Made by a program: the position numbers and the translations under genes
Part shown: one piece after another, positions 43,646 through 51,060 of the stretch
How positions within the stretch are numbered: the stretch's first letter is position 1
How the letters are laid out: each line of letters starts with the position of its first letter
Assembly: GCA_030683815.1 (NCBI GenBank)
Contig: JAUXPJ010000010.1
Span: 1-64,000 of the forward strand
Source: Flavobacteriaceae bacterium
GTDB taxonomy: Bacteria > Bacteroidota > Bacteroidia > Flavobacteriales > Flavobacteriaceae
DNA: 64,000 nt
Reading direction: 5' to 3'
Notes under the pieces: model-generated
What the model was told of the DNA's origin: nothing
Databases searched by the model: none
The model's input: the letters and a program-made list of their open reading frames with translations, nothing else

Positions 43646-44770
43646 ATGAAAAAAATTGTTTTTGTAACCGGTACCCGGGCTGATTTCGGAAAGTTAAAAC
43701 CTTTAATTCAAATCCTTCAAAATCAATCAGATTTTGAAACATACCTTTTTGTAACCGGAATGCATTTAAATCCACTTTACGGATACACTCTTCTAGAAAT
43801 AGAAAAAACAGGATTTAACAATATTCACACCTTTGAAAATACCACCTGTGAAACCACGATGGAATTAACGCTGGCGAAAACTATTGAGGGATTTTCAAGT
43901 TTTGTCAAACAACTTCAACCCGATTTAATCGTAGTGCACGGCGATCGGGTGGAAGCTTTGGCAGGCGCCATAGTGGGATCTTTAAACAATCGATTGGTAG
44001 CTCATATTGAAGGAGGCGAATTGTCAGGAACCATTGATGAGTTAATCAGACATGCCGTAACTAAAATGAGCCATCTTCATTTTGTGGCGAACGATGAAGC
44101 AAAAAATCGTTTATTGCAGTTGGGCGAAATTGCTGAATCCATTGCTGTTATTGGATCTCCGGATGTAGATGTGATGTTTTCCAATGAATTACCATCCTTA
44201 AAAGTGGCTAAAAACTATTATGAAATTCCATTTCAAAATTATGCAATAGCGCTCTTTCATCCCATTACCACCGAAATCAATTTAATGCCCGATTATGTAA
44301 AACAATGGATTGATGGTTTAACAGCAACTGATAAAAAGTACCTAATGATTTATCCCAACAATGATTTGGGTTCTTCAATTATTTTAGATTGCTGCCAAAC
44401 GCTTAAAGAAAATCCCAATTTCAGAATTTTACCTTCGGTACGCTTTGAGTATTTTCTGACACTTTTAAAGAACGCCGATTTTATCATCGGTAATTCGAGT
44501 GCCGGAGTTCGAGAAGCGCCATATTATGGAGTTCCAACCATTAATATAGGAACCCGTCAGCAAAACAGGGTTAATTTAATGGATATTCAAAATATTGATT
44601 GTAAATCCAAACAAATAGTAAGTGCAGTTGCTGAGCTGAAAGAAAAAAATACCACCGAAACTGTACAGCCCTTTGGCAATGGAAACAGCGCTGCATTGTT
44701 TTTAAAATCCTTAGAAGATAAAGCTATCTGGAACATCAACCATCAAAAACAGTTTAGAGATATCTATTAA
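43646..44770 (+). CDS. neuC: UDP-N-acetylglucosamine 2-epimerase (hydrolysing), NeuC-like
   Basis: A 374-residue epimerase that releases ManNAc or a related sugar from UDP-GlcNAc-type substrates, the entry step to sialic-acid-like nonulosonates. VFVTGTRADFGKLKPLI, HGDRVEALAGAIVGSL, HIEGGELSGTIDELIRHAVT and GNSSAGVREAPYYGVPTINIG (broken into family blocks) are all present. No neuB or neuA is beside it, so the pathway is incomplete in this window. It is the first complete gene of the second glycan region. Confidence 0.9.
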   Translation: MKKIVFVTGTRADFGKLKPLIQILQNQSDFETYLFVTGMHLNPLYGYTLLEIEKTGFNNIHTFENTTCETTMELTLAKTIEGFSSFVKQLQPDLIVVHGDRVEALAGAIVGSLNNRLVAHIEGGELSGTIDELIRHAVTKMSHLHFVANDEAKNRLLQLGEIAESIAVIGSPDVDVMFSNELPSLKVAKNYYEIPFQNYAIALFHPITTEINLMPDYVKQWIDGLTATDKKYLMIYPNNDLGSSIILDCCQTLKENPNFRILPSVRFEYFLTLLKNADFIIGNSSAGVREAPYYGVPTINIGTRQQNRVNLMDIQNIDCKSKQIVSAVAELKEKNTTETVQPFGNGNSAALFLKSLEDKAIWNINHQKQFRDIY

Positions 44771-45091: not shown

Positions 45092-45376
45092 ATGGCAAAT
45101 ACTTTTACACAAATCCATATCCGTTTTGTTTTTGCAGTGAAATTTAGAAAAGGAATGATTCAGCCGCAATGGAAAGATTCATTATATAAATATATTACGG
45201 GAATCATTCAAAATAAAAATCATAAACTTTTATGTATCAACGGGATGCCGGATCATATTCATATTTTGATTGGAGTAAGACCCTCTCAATCGGTTTCAGA
45301 TTTAATGAAAGAGGTAAAATAAAGAGCATCTTATTGGATTAATAAAAATAAAGTGAGAAATAATCAATTTAAATAG
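45092..45376 (+). pseudogene. IS200/IS605-type transposase remnant
   Basis: MANTFTQIHIRFVFAVKFRK and the HUH site PDHIHILIG are those of TnpA-like Tyr transposases. A TAA at 45320 interrupts the frame, but the same frame continues RASYWINKNK, a recognisable continuation of the family, to TAG at 45374. The C-terminal half with the catalytic Tyr is missing. The remnant stops 3 bases before the next gene's ATG, so the fucosyltransferase gene lies at the break. Confidence 0.85.
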
Positions 45377-45379
45377 AAT

Positions 45380-46309
45380 ATGATTACGTATTCACAATTA
45401 GGTCGAAAGGGTAATCTTGGCAATCAAATGTTTCAGATTGCATCAACAATCGGTATTGCAGAAAAGCATGGACATGATTACTTTTTTCCATTTTGGCAAT
45501 TTTCAAGATATTTTGAGAATCAATTACCAGTTGCAAATATGGATGAAAGTTATAAAATTATATTTGAAGAAAAATATAATTATTATGAAAGGGTGATTGA
45601 CAAATGTAATTATGATATTCGTGGATGGTTACAGTCTGAAAAGTATTTTAATCAAATAATAACAAAAGAAATATTTAAATTTAAAAAAGAATTTACAGAA
45701 GAATTATACCACAAACATCAATTATTATTTTTAAAGAAAACAATATTAATATCCATTAGAAGAGGTGATTTTGTTAATAATCCATACTTTTTTCAATTGT
45801 CATTTAGGTATTATTTTTTAGCAATTATTGAAAATTTTCCTGATTGGAAAGAAAGAAATTTGATTTTAATAAGTGATGATATTAAATATTGTAAATTTCA
45901 TTTTTCTTTTTTAAAGAATGTGTATTTTTTTGATAATTTATCAGCAATAGAACAAATAGCTTTAGGTTCAAAATGTGATGATTTTATTATCAGCAACTCT
46001 ACTTTTTCATGGTGGATAGCATGGCTCGGTGAAAAAGAAAATTCGAAAGTAATTCGACCTCTTAGAAATTTTAGGGGTCAATTTAGTAAGCAAAATGATG
46101 ATTCGGATTATTTTCCTTCAAGATGGATATGCTTTAATGATAATTTATTTAGATTAGAAAAAAAATATTATTTTTTAATAATGAAGGCAAATGTTTATTC
46201 TTTATTTGTAAATACAAAATTTAGATATTTAAAATTTAAAAAAACGAGTAAAAACATTGTAAAAATGATTTTATTTTTTTTGCATTTACGTAAAAATTAT
46301 GATTCTTAA
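45380..46309 (+). CDS. GT11-family fucosyltransferase-like protein
   Basis: A 309-residue protein with the GT11 motifs RKGNLGNQMFQIAS at the start, ISIRRGDF near residue 135 (the Arg-containing HxRRxD-type donor motif, with His replaced by Ser) and FIISNSTFSWWIAWLG near 210. GT11 enzymes usually make alpha-1,2-fucose links. The gene is visibly more AT-rich than its neighbours, notably in the C-terminal third, and begins right at the transposase break; both fit recent acquisition. Confidence 0.83.
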   Translation: MITYSQLGRKGNLGNQMFQIASTIGIAEKHGHDYFFPFWQFSRYFENQLPVANMDESYKIIFEEKYNYYERVIDKCNYDIRGWLQSEKYFNQIITKEIFKFKKEFTEELYHKHQLLFLKKTILISIRRGDFVNNPYFFQLSFRYYFLAIIENFPDWKERNLILISDDIKYCKFHFSFLKNVYFFDNLSAIEQIALGSKCDDFIISNSTFSWWIAWLGEKENSKVIRPLRNFRGQFSKQNDDSDYFPSRWICFNDNLFRLEKKYYFLIMKANVYSLFVNTKFRYLKFKKTSKNIVKMILFFLHLRKNYDS

Positions 46310-46318
46310 TATGAACCA

Positions 46319-46474
46319 ATGAACAAACTAGGAATTGTAATCACCGACGGAGTTGGATACCGTAATTTTATCCTCAGTGATTTTATAAGCAAATCTAAAC
46401 AAACTTTTGATGAAGTGGTCATTTTTTTGTGTTTGCCAAATAGTACTTCTTACTTTTTATACCTTCAAAAATAA
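46319..46474 (+). pseudogene. Truncated copy of the start of the gene at 47797
   Basis: A 51-codon frame that begins MNKLGIVITDGVGYRNFIL. Its first 40 codons match the start of the downstream glycosyltransferase-like gene: 106 of 120 bases and 36 of 40 residues by eye. After the CLP block it becomes unrelated and stops. Both copies also share AACCAATG at the start. It was probably part of a related gene, later cut. It has no sign of being functional. Confidence 0.85.
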
Positions 46475-46497
46475 ATCTAAATAGTTAAAATTGTTTG

Positions 46498-46525
46498 TTG
46501 AATTAAACAATATGATGTAAATTTG
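46498..46525 (+). promoter_or_regulatory. Promoter of the AAA ATPase gene
   Basis: TTG (46498-46500), a 17-base spacer and TAAATTTG (46518-46525) match the Bacteroidota consensus exactly. The ATG follows 18 bases later. No other gene of this glycan region shows such a clean promoter. Confidence 0.72.
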
Positions 46526-46543
46526 TGGTTTATAACAAACAAA

Positions 46544-47740
46544 ATGGAAGATTTATTTGAGAAATACAGACAAAAAGTAAATTATACTTCTACAACATTT
46601 GTTAGAAGCATCATGAATGATATTAATTGGAACTCGCGGCTAATTGGTATAAAAGGTGTTCGTGGTATTGGGAAAACTACCTTGCTTTTGCAATACATCA
46701 AACTAAATTTGAGTCATGAATTAGAAAATACCTTATATGTAAGTCTAGATAATATTTGGTTCAGCAATCATTCTTTAATTGAACTGGTAGATTATTTTGT
46801 TAAAAGAGGTGGTAAATATCTTTTTTTGGATGAGGTACATAAATATCCAAATTGGTCACAAGAACTCAAAAATATATATGATGATTTTCCATTGCTCAAA
46901 GTGGTATTTACAGGTTCGTCTTTGTTGGAAATACTAAATGCCAGAGCTGATTTGAGTCGCCGTGCAAGAATATATTTAATGCAAGGACTTTCTTTTCGTG
47001 AGTATATCAATATGGAAACAGGAATTGAATTTGAACGTTTTACTTTGAACGAAATACTTGAAAATCAAACCCAAATAGCCAATAATATCATCACAAAAAT
47101 AAAACCTTTACATTATTTTGATTCCTATTTAAAACTGGGTTATTATCCATTTTATAAAGAAAATCCTGAACTTTATCACAGCGCTTTAAAAGATGTTATC
47201 AATATGGTGCTAGAAATAGAATTGCCTTTGCTTCGAGGAGTAGATTTGTCTTATGTATTCAAAATAAAACAACTGCTTGTTATCATTGCAGAATCGGTTC
47301 CTTTTGTTCCAAATGTGAGTAAATTGAGCGAAAAAATGGGAATCAATAGAAGTACTTTGCTTTTGTATATTCATTATTTAGATGAAATAGAACTGACAGC
47401 TAATTTGTACAAACAATCGGGTGGAATTAGTAAATTGCAAAAACCGGTTAAAATATTTTTAGATAATACCAATTTGATGTTTGCTTTAACGCCAAAACAA
47501 ACGAATTTAGGAAATATCAGAGAAACTTTTTTTGCCAATCAATTAAGTTATCAACATCAATTAATGTATGTTGAGCATGGAGATTTTTTGGTAGATGAGC
47601 ACTTTGTTTTTGAAATTGGAGGGAAAAATAAAAATACAAAACAGCTAAAAAATACAGACAATGCTTTTGTAGCTGCCGATAATTTAGAAATTGGATTTAA
47701 TAAGACTATTCCTTTGTGGTTGTTTGGATTTTTGTATTGA
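46544..47740 (+). CDS. AAA_14/DUF4143-type ATPase
   Basis: A 398-residue ATPase: Walker A GVRGIGKTTLLLQY (about 36), Walker B KYLFLDEVHKYPNW (about 93), sensor VVFTGSS (about 122). A winged-helix part follows (about 255-300), and the C-terminal DUF4143-like domain ends FVFEIGGKNKNTKQ and IPLWLFGFLY. The ExGGK pattern suggests a PD-(D/E)XK-like fold; this is inference. Members of this family are widespread but of unknown function. It sits alone inside a glycosyltransferase cluster. Confidence 0.85.
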   Translation: MEDLFEKYRQKVNYTSTTFVRSIMNDINWNSRLIGIKGVRGIGKTTLLLQYIKLNLSHELENTLYVSLDNIWFSNHSLIELVDYFVKRGGKYLFLDEVHKYPNWSQELKNIYDDFPLLKVVFTGSSLLEILNARADLSRRARIYLMQGLSFREYINMETGIEFERFTLNEILENQTQIANNIITKIKPLHYFDSYLKLGYYPFYKENPELYHSALKDVINMVLEIELPLLRGVDLSYVFKIKQLLVIIAESVPFVPNVSKLSEKMGINRSTLLLYIHYLDEIELTANLYKQSGGISKLQKPVKIFLDNTNLMFALTPKQTNLGNIRETFFANQLSYQHQLMYVEHGDFLVDEHFVFEIGGKNKNTKQLKNTDNAFVAADNLEIGFNKTIPLWLFGFLY

Positions 47741-47796
47741 TATAAAATTAAAAATATAAAATGAAATATATAATTGTTTTTGAAAAAAAATAACCA

Positions 47797-49188
47797 ATGC
47801 AAAAACTAGGAATTGTCATCACCGACGGAGTTGGATACCGCAATTTTATCCTCTCTGATTTTATAAGTGCCTCAAATCAAACTTTTGATGAAGTGGTCAT
47901 TTTTTCATGTTTGCCAAAGCATGTTTATACAACACTTCCAGAAAATTTCACCATCATTGAATTGGAGGTGTTTCAAGAAAAATTTCCGGCTTGGTTTTTT
48001 AGAAAAGCAAAAGAACTTACCCATCTTCACTTAAATGCCAAAGATAATTTCGGGATTCAGGACAATTTAAAAGCAAACTATTCCACTGCAAAAACTCCCC
48101 GAGGGTTGGTCACTCGTTTGCTGCACAAATGGACTGCCAAAGTACATTCAGAAAAATGGATTCAACGCTATAACTGGCTGCAACAAAAAACATTTCAGTC
48201 AAATCCAATTACGCAACAATACCTGAAGCTTTTAAAAGAGTATCAGCTTTCTATCTTATTTTTTACGCATCAACGTCCACCTTATATTGCACCTTTAATT
48301 TATGCGGCAGAGCAATTAAAAATCAAAACCGCCACTTTTATTTTTAGTTGGGATAACTTGGCGTCTAAAAGCAGGATGGCCGGCAATTTTGATTACTATT
48401 TGGTTTGGAGCGATTTAATGATGCAAGAATTATTGCAATTTTATCCCTCTATTAAAGCAGCTCAAATAGCCGTTGTCGGAACACCACAATTTGAACCCTA
48501 TGTGTTAGATAGGTATAAAATAAGTAAAGATGAATTGATAAAAACTTTTAATTTAGACGCCCAAAAACCCATACTTTTATTCACTTGCAATGATTCAAGC
48601 AGTGAAAATGATCCCATTTATCTGGAGTTGGTAGCCCATTTTATAGCAACTGACAAATTAGTGAAGGAAGTTAATTTAGTGGTCAGAACTTCACCGGCAG
48701 AAGATCCAACGCGATTTAAACATATTGCCGGGAAATTTTCTTTTATTCACTGGAATTACCCCGATTGGAAACTCAGCAGAACTCATCATCAAGAAGCTTG
48801 GTCTCAAAGGGTTCCCTCTTTTCAGGATATCGTTCATTTACGGGGCTTATTAAACCATTGTGATTTATGTATCAACGTGTTGTCAACCATTACGTTGGAT
48901 GCTTTTTTGTTTGATAAACCCGTTATTAATCCCATTTTTGGAAATCAGGAAAATCAACTGTTCAACGATCAAAAATTCTTGAGTTATCAACATTTAGTCA
49001 CCTTAGTAGATTCAAATGCCACGTTGATTGTAAAGAATGAACAACAATTGTTGGATGCCATCAATAAGCAGCTTCAAGAAAAGGATACTCGAAAAATTGA
49101 GCGAAGTAATTTTCTGAAGTTGCAAATTGGAAAACCACTTCCTGGAACCAGTTTACGAATTGCACAAACTTTAAAGGATTGGTGTTGA
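47797..49188 (+). CDS. Glycosyltransferase-like GT-B protein of the glycan region
   Basis: A 463-residue protein not assigned to a named family. The C-terminal half (about 240-440) has a GT-B donor-domain layout: KPILLFTCNDSSSENDPIY, VVRTSPAED, then LRGLLNHCDLCINVLST and TLDAFLFDKPVINPIFG. It resembles capsule and CDP-glycerol-type transferases in that pattern. The next gene's ATG overlaps its TGA. A truncated relative of its first 40 codons lies at 46319. Function as a sugar transferase is likely, not proven. Confidence 0.7.
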   Translation: MQKLGIVITDGVGYRNFILSDFISASNQTFDEVVIFSCLPKHVYTTLPENFTIIELEVFQEKFPAWFFRKAKELTHLHLNAKDNFGIQDNLKANYSTAKTPRGLVTRLLHKWTAKVHSEKWIQRYNWLQQKTFQSNPITQQYLKLLKEYQLSILFFTHQRPPYIAPLIYAAEQLKIKTATFIFSWDNLASKSRMAGNFDYYLVWSDLMMQELLQFYPSIKAAQIAVVGTPQFEPYVLDRYKISKDELIKTFNLDAQKPILLFTCNDSSSENDPIYLELVAHFIATDKLVKEVNLVVRTSPAEDPTRFKHIAGKFSFIHWNYPDWKLSRTHHQEAWSQRVPSFQDIVHLRGLLNHCDLCINVLSTITLDAFLFDKPVINPIFGNQENQLFNDQKFLSYQHLVTLVDSNATLIVKNEQQLLDAINKQLQEKDTRKIERSNFLKLQIGKPLPGTSLRIAQTLKDWC

Positions 49189-50270: not shown

Positions 50271-50343
50271 TTTTTTTATGATAATTTTTAACATGACTTT
50301 GAAAAAGCAAATAGTCTTTTGTCAAATCGATATGATTTATGTT

Positions 50344-50455
50344 GTCACCTCGAGCAGTTTATACTGAACGAAAACCCAGTACAGTCGAGAGAGAATTAAG
50401 TTACGTTGTCAAATCGAGAAGTTTATACTGAGCGAAGACGAAGTACAGTCGAGAT
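50344..50455. repeat. Left REP-like cluster beside the GIY-YIG gene
   Basis: Two direct copies of a unit of about 48 bases (50344-50391 and 50408-50455). Each starts GTCA, passes TCGAG and AGTTTATACTGA, and ends GTACAGTCGAGA. They differ in a few places (for example CC/AA after GTCA). The second copy is 20 bases before the nuclease start codon. Confidence 0.8.
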
Positions 50456-50474
50456 TAATATTAAAAAGGTCATT

Positions 50475-50807
50475 ATGAAATTCTATTATATTTATATTTT
50501 AAAATGCAGTGATAACTCTTTATATGTTGGAATTACTTCGGACATTGAAAGAAGAGTTATGGAGCACAATGCTGGAAAATATCCAGATGCATATACACAT
50601 GATAGAAGACCTGTAACTTTGGTGTTTTACCAAGATTTTACAGAACCCAATCGAGCTATAGACTTTGAAAAAAAAATAAAAAAATGGAGTCGAGCTAAAA
50701 AACAAGCGTTGATAGATGAAAATTATGATAAATTGCAGTATTTGTCTGAATGTAGAAATGCAACTCATTATAAATACAATTTAGATAATGAATTTGATGA
50801 AGACTAA
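50475..50807 (+). CDS. GIY-YIG nuclease family protein (UPF0213-like)
   Basis: A 110-residue single-domain GIY-YIG protein. YYIYILKCSDNSLYVGITSD holds both halves of the motif, ERRVMEH the catalytic Arg, and AIDFEKKIKKWSRAKKQALI the metal-binding Glu. Stand-alone proteins of this kind are common and of uncertain function. ATG at 50475 is chosen because upstream codons are repeat sequence. It is flanked on both sides by one REP-like family, the right side beginning in inverted orientation. Confidence 0.9.
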   Translation: MKFYYIYILKCSDNSLYVGITSDIERRVMEHNAGKYPDAYTHDRRPVTLVFYQDFTEPNRAIDFEKKIKKWSRAKKQALIDENYDKLQYLSECRNATHYKYNLDNEFDED

Positions 50808-50831: not shown

Positions 50832-51060
50832 CGTCTCGACTGCGCTCGACATGACAAAAGTTATAGATTGCGCTCGACGGGACAAAAGAAATAGATTGTC
50901 AAATCGAGTTGATTTACATTGTCACCTCGAGCAGTTTATACTGAGTGAAGACGAAGTACAGTTGAAAGGGAGCGCAGTCGAATGTCAAATCGAGCGCAGT
51001 CGAGATTTAGTTTATATTTGTAATACATAGGGAATGCGTCTCGACTCCGCTCAACGTGAC
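50832..51060. repeat. Right REP-like cluster beside the GIY-YIG gene
   Basis: An inverted copy, CGTCTCGACTGCGCTCGACA (50832-50851) running into TGAC, is followed by direct copies with GTCAAATCGAG and GTCACCTCGAGCAG near 50897-50995, then by another inverted copy CGTCTCGACTCCGCTCAACG from 51038. The family is the same as in the left cluster. The whole gap 50808-51083 is taken up by it. Confidence 0.8.

Follow-up and report, generated by a model that had tools for sequence, protein, structure and literature searches.

An AAA_14-type ATPase gene in a glycan locus of a Flavobacteriaceae bacterium sits between two diverged copies of one gene's start, and this block can be read, with a probability of roughly 0.6, as the scar of a single-gene mobile unit which entered through recombination with a homologous crossover at one end and an illegitimate joint at the other. 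The site of the event is a 463-codon gene that lies intact downstream of the ATPase. The arrangement was found in a stretch of 64,000 nucleotides (hereafter the window) from a genome of 2.5 Mb in 23 contigs.

The repeated gene start in the glycan locus

The glycan locus holds, in order, an epimerase gene (43646-44770), an IS200-type transposase fragment, a GT11 gene, a stub, the ATPase gene, the 463-codon gene and two GT4 genes. The IS200/IS605-type fragment (45092..45322, plus strand, 76 codons) matches PF01797 (E 1.9e-17) and scores above the cut-off of NF033573, as the sequence-only reading had proposed, but it is not cut 3 bases before the GT11 start codon as was stated there. There is an in-frame stop at codon 77, homology continues to about 45364, and when the fragment is read past the stop the match to the family profile stops at residue 88-91, about 15-25 bases 5' of the GT11 ATG. 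The GT11 (fucosyltransferase-like) gene that follows (45380..46309, plus strand; PF01531, E 4e-20) is indeed AT-rich, with 23.3% GC against 33.1% for the whole window. No link was found between the ATPase event and either the GT11 gene or the transposase fragment; they need not share one event, and the fragment is probably unrelated to it. The fragment was also rejected as a vehicle, as it is broken and lies outside the repeats described below, between which there is no transposase.

The GT11 stop codon is 9 bases from the ATG of the stub, which is normal operon spacing, and the stub therefore occupies the usual place of the next operon gene. It belongs to a direct repeat (46314..46440 and 47792..47918, both on the plus strand) of 127 ungapped bp with 89% identity (BLAST E about 1e-45), which is far beyond chance and bears out the 88% over 120 bases estimated earlier. 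The repeat begins five bases 5' of the ATG and ends at codon 41; the downstream copy is the start of the intact 463-codon gene, and the upstream copy holds the five bases and the first ~41 codons of that gene. The stub ORF (46319-46474, plus strand) had been described as a 51-codon copy of the gene at 47797 that keeps the ATG context of the full copy. It does have 51 codons, but about 41 are copied and the last 10 are unrelated read-on, and the retained context consists of five bases (AACCA) with nothing beyond those. The stub is probably a remnant of the resident gene; no sign was found that it is a conserved gene, and the same stub was found in no other of the genomes examined. The 463-codon gene itself (47797..49188, plus strand) is glycosyltransferase-like, with no Pfam match and with a match to the BFO_1060 glycosyltransferase family below threshold only.

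Versions of the locus with and without the ATPase exist in relatives. In G002, which belongs to the same genus, a different glycosyltransferase-like gene is followed directly by a homolog of the 463-codon gene (62% aa) and there is no ATPase, and this is the uninterrupted version that the sequence-only reading had suggested looking for. The gene is present in one copy each in G002 and in a second ATPase-free relative, G032. The closest ATPase (79% aa) is carried by a Bacteroidetes MAG (L053). It lies between the same epimerase as in the window and, 16 bp further 3', a gene orthologous to that of 463 codons (51% aa), and no stub is detectable there. DNA identity between the window and L053 is 75% for the ATPase and about 67% for the flanking genes, suggesting movement of the ATPase after the two loci had split.

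Further along the same glycan locus, dispersed repeats (50319-50394, 50383-50458 and 50896-50971; 70-84% alike) lie around a small GIY-YIG nuclease gene (50472-50804). The versions of the locus in L053 and G002 also have GIY-YIG genes or fragments, at a different position.

The ATPase and the extent of the proposed moving unit

The ATPase (46544..47740, plus strand, 398 aa) comprises an AAA+ module with intact Walker motifs, a helical middle part and a C-terminal domain with PD-(D/E)XK-like residues. Its assignment to AAA_14 (PF13173) is secure (E 7e-31; 107 bits against a curated cut-off of 27), and the DUF4143 match over residues 240-340 is below the curated cut-off (20.3 against 28.1 bits). 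The PADLOC model of PDC-S01 matches residues 30-351 (E 1e-20, 72 bits), and by this profile match the protein is a predicted divergent relative of PDC-S01. PDC-S01 itself is described as a fusion of an ATPase with a PD-(D/E)XK domain; it is reported to be very common, in fourth place among defence candidates across prokaryotes, and its antiviral activity to be still unvalidated by experiment (PMC12988326).

The predicted model of the window protein is confident (pLDDT 92). D347, E357 and K363 are invariant across 74 sequences; in the model this region forms a helix-strand-strand-helix-strand arrangement, and the spacing of EIGGK differs from that of E-X-K. The modelled C-terminal domain appears compatible with a PD-(D/E)XK-like nuclease fold, short of proof. 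Among the matches listed, the fold search returned general AAA+/ORC/STAND-like structures only (TM at most about 0.4) and no nuclease, and searching solved structures by sequence gave no useful match.

As had been predicted, the gene carries its own Bacteroidota-type promoter, TTTG-N20-TAAATTTG (46494..46525, plus strand), and this is overlapped by an operator-like palindrome, ATTGTTTGTTGAATTAAACAAT (46490..46511, plus strand). A TAnnTTTG box at most 60 bp from the start was found for 163/193 ATPases and 37/182 controls, and palindromes with arms of at least 7 occur in 50% of the ATPase promoters compared with 12% of the regions upstream of control ORFs and 9% of shuffled sequences. The sequence of the palindrome varies from copy to copy. 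Copy-specific palindromes, often two or more, were observed near the TAnnTTTG box in the 100 bp upstream of ATPases, for example those of the window, L053, L155 and L139. The promoter palindromes may reflect autoregulation by a DNA-binding protein, and the gene product is likely to be an ATPase that binds DNA, regulates its own expression and carries a nuclease-like domain, the gene being a candidate for phage defence, for selfish spread, or for both.

Close ATPases in unrelated contexts have in common only about 50-125 bp of upstream DNA and the coding sequence to the stop, and the moving unit is therefore taken to be the promoter and the gene. The ATPases of L134 and L255 (85% aa), for instance, have DNA in common from -67 to the stop, and the stub in L255 ends at -65. 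In the window the minimal mobile unit was placed at 46467..47766 (plus strand), the segment that shares the 75% identity with L053. Shared inverted ends were not found among close ATPase copies, nor was a transposase or integrase belonging to the unit found between the window repeats, where the ATPase is the sole gene.

Repeats around related ATPases

Relatives of the ATPase were surveyed at 80 loci, for which each species was represented by one genome, and at further loci from whole genomes, which gave 193 distinct copies with flanks. A direct repeat was called tight if it ended at most 300 bp from the start codon and began at most 300 bp from the stop. Tight repeats were present for 24/193 ATPase copies and for 3/305 control genes of similar size (Fisher P 4e-8), in loci that are unevenly sampled and among related copies that are not fully independent; pairs of swapped flanks gave 2/302. 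In a largely independent set of full-length PDC-S01 relatives the count was 7/29 (P 2e-6), and among broader AAA_14 genes it was 5/27, of which one case is common to the first set and one to the PDC-S01 set. About 86% of the members of the ATPase family have no tight repeat, and the scar is either not obligatory in the family or has decayed.

The repeats are clear gene ends in 8 of the 24 tight cases. Gene starts are duplicated from the ATG in the window, in L255 (sugar transferase), in L138 (GT4) and in L045 (GT2), and 3' ends are duplicated in L047 (porQ-like), L153 (nadR-like), L136 (queG-like) and L094, where the gene names other than those of glycosyltransferases are our own reading of the sequences. 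Other repeats correspond to a MutS-like C-terminus (L391) and to the 3' end of a tRNA-Ala gene (L342). Dispersed or intergenic repeats and terminators account for about half of the tight cases and count for less as evidence; dispersed intergenic repeats explain part of the set (e.g. L055, L084, L134 and L190) and were kept separate from the gene ends. A protein-level search for older stubs yielded one convincing extra case, L235. Because partial gene copies bracket ATPases in many unrelated contexts (porQ-, nadR-, queG- and mutS-like genes and a tRNA-Ala end), the event belongs to the ATPase family and not to the glycan locus. It had been proposed from the letters that two versions of a glycan locus were exchanged with the ATPase as incidental cargo; the diverged copies and both versions of the locus do exist, but the ATPase is probably more than a passenger, and may drive the process or merely survive it.

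Two observations concern the surroundings of these genes. In L394 and L342 the repeats around PDC-S01/AAA_14 genes resemble tRNA 3' ends with their flanks, tRNA-Ala being confirmed in L342 only. In L066, L085, L112 and contig C3 of G201, two or more AAA_14 ATPases are clustered with repeats between them.

The genome of the window contains four units of stub, ATPase and gene in all. The other three are on contig C12 (L045/L336, G000:C12:74000-86000), in a second glycan locus where each of three AAA_14 ATPases has a 5' stub of the following glycosyltransferase gene before it and that gene itself after it; the sequence-only reading had proposed a search for the family in other glycan loci, and it does occur there. 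The first part of the array consists of a short stub, a 444-aa ATPase and GT308, and the second of a 97-bp stub, a 403-aa ATPase, a 62-bp stub, a 396-aa ATPase and the GT2 gene. Of the three ATPases, the one of 403 aa is a full-length member of PDC-S01 (463 bits). Two of these ATPases are each preceded by a GT2 stub, indicating that the start of the GT2 gene was hit by two insertions, one after the other. The three consecutive GT2 starts differ from one another to about the same extent (9-11 of 62 bases), which would also suit tandem paralogs, i.e. two related glycosyltransferase genes side by side, the body of the first having been replaced by the ATPase. This explanation was rejected as very unlikely, as it fails for the 3' ends of normally single genes (porQ-, nadR-, queG- and mutS-like) and for the tRNA-Ala end, and no remnant of the 3' part of a first gene was found.

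It could also be argued that any foreign gene may enter a recombining locus by ordinary one-sided recombination and that the ATPase is nothing special. Homology-facilitated illegitimate recombination is an established route which can build arrays of remnants (PMC5361080), and tight repeats were found for 2/28 Fic genes. This argument is unlikely to hold, given that AAA_15 genes (0/18) and N6_N4 methylases (0/26) bring the three other accessory families to 2/72 in total, in what are small controls for mobile single genes, against 24/193 and 7/29 for the ATPases, and given the four ATPase units in a single 2.5 Mb genome. One of the two Fic cases appears to involve a specificity-subunit-like repeat, from a family with internal repeats. 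In L420 a Fic gene lies between copies of a 77-bp repeat (91%) resembling a segment of a type I restriction specificity subunit.

Divergence of the copies and probable mode of entry

The geometry of the block also matches an insertion with long target duplication in place, in which 127 bp of the resident gene would have been doubled and the useless copy would have decayed. Long and variable target duplications have been reported for the insertion of restriction-modification (R-M) genes (PMC3031569), and repeats of 92-96% identity do occur in the ATPase family. A useless copy is expected to decay evenly, with pN/pS of about 0.5 or more. The seven gene-end cases with coding differences have mismatches of 30/12/80 by codon position and a pN/pS of 0.21, and in-place decay was rejected for these pooled cases (P 1e-7); as read from the alignment, the mutS-like L391 has silent changes only. 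Duplication in place is on these figures improbable. The excess at silent sites in the pooled cases means that, before they met, the copies had diverged in separate lineages, each as a working gene. The same had been claimed for the two copies in the window, and it probably holds on the strength of the pooled cases; the window repeat by itself, with 14 differences, gives P 0.31 in the same codon test, and the clustering of these differences within codons (P 0.001) points weakly in the same direction. As for the native copy in G052, the porQ gene of G037, from the same genus, is too distant (73% aa) to discriminate.

Under entry of a mobile unit from one side, incoming DNA carrying the ATPase and a gene start, from a related strain, would pair with the resident gene. 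A homologous crossover would take place within that gene at the end that carries the gene start, and the opposite end would be joined illegitimately about 122 bp inside it, so that the resident start would be left as a stub with an intact gene downstream. The ATPase family would repeat this one-sided entry with the 5' or 3' ends of many genes. The strain pairs surveyed with and without the unit are not near-identical, and we infer the one-sided recombination step.

Some integrative elements restore the end of the gene that they enter and leave a truncated resident copy. The ATPase units resemble these in that the target stays whole, the newcomer supplies the end and a truncated resident copy remains, but differ in having no integrase between the repeats and in using many different target genes. 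R-M genes whose insertion involves a long target duplication (Nobusato 2000 and Furuta 2010, as given in PMC3031569 and PMC3154945) are likewise small transposase-free units that have long and variable direct repeats of host sequence on either side. The window unit, however, is a lone ATPase gene without a methyltransferase, and the repeats around the ATPases differ mainly at silent sites, which indicates two sources and not duplication in place; bracketing by repeats of host sequence is thus common to both, whereas an origin by duplication of the resident copy was not found in the pooled cases. The C12 array recalls the arrays of T6SS immunity genes (PMC5361080), where a series of insertions, all anchored in a single gene, leaves remnants lined up side by side, although in C12 the remnants are gene starts and not immunity genes, and the inserted gene is an ATPase. 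Like PDC-S01, the window protein is an AAA ATPase, with a putative DUF4143-type C-terminal domain (sub-cut-off match); it is nevertheless divergent, at 72 bits, and mobility scars of PDC-S01 are undescribed in the papers found. No earlier description of such scars around these ATPases was found in the open-access literature, which is weak evidence of novelty.

One-gene units of this kind can enter dense operons without breaking them, and their diverged repeats make the insertions partly traceable to a donor lineage. A mobility scar around PDC-S01 also offers a test of whether it is a defence gene or a selfish gene. A further and rather doubtful proposal is that PDC-S01-type ATPases are autonomous homing-like genes, which would bind their own copy-specific operator while the nuclease-like domain would act on ATPase-free alleles, and one-ended repair would copy the gene in together with the end of the neighbouring gene. 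If this were true, one of the most widespread candidate defence genes would be at least partly a selfish mobile gene, and the embedding of PDC-S01 in other systems would reflect insertion and not shared function.
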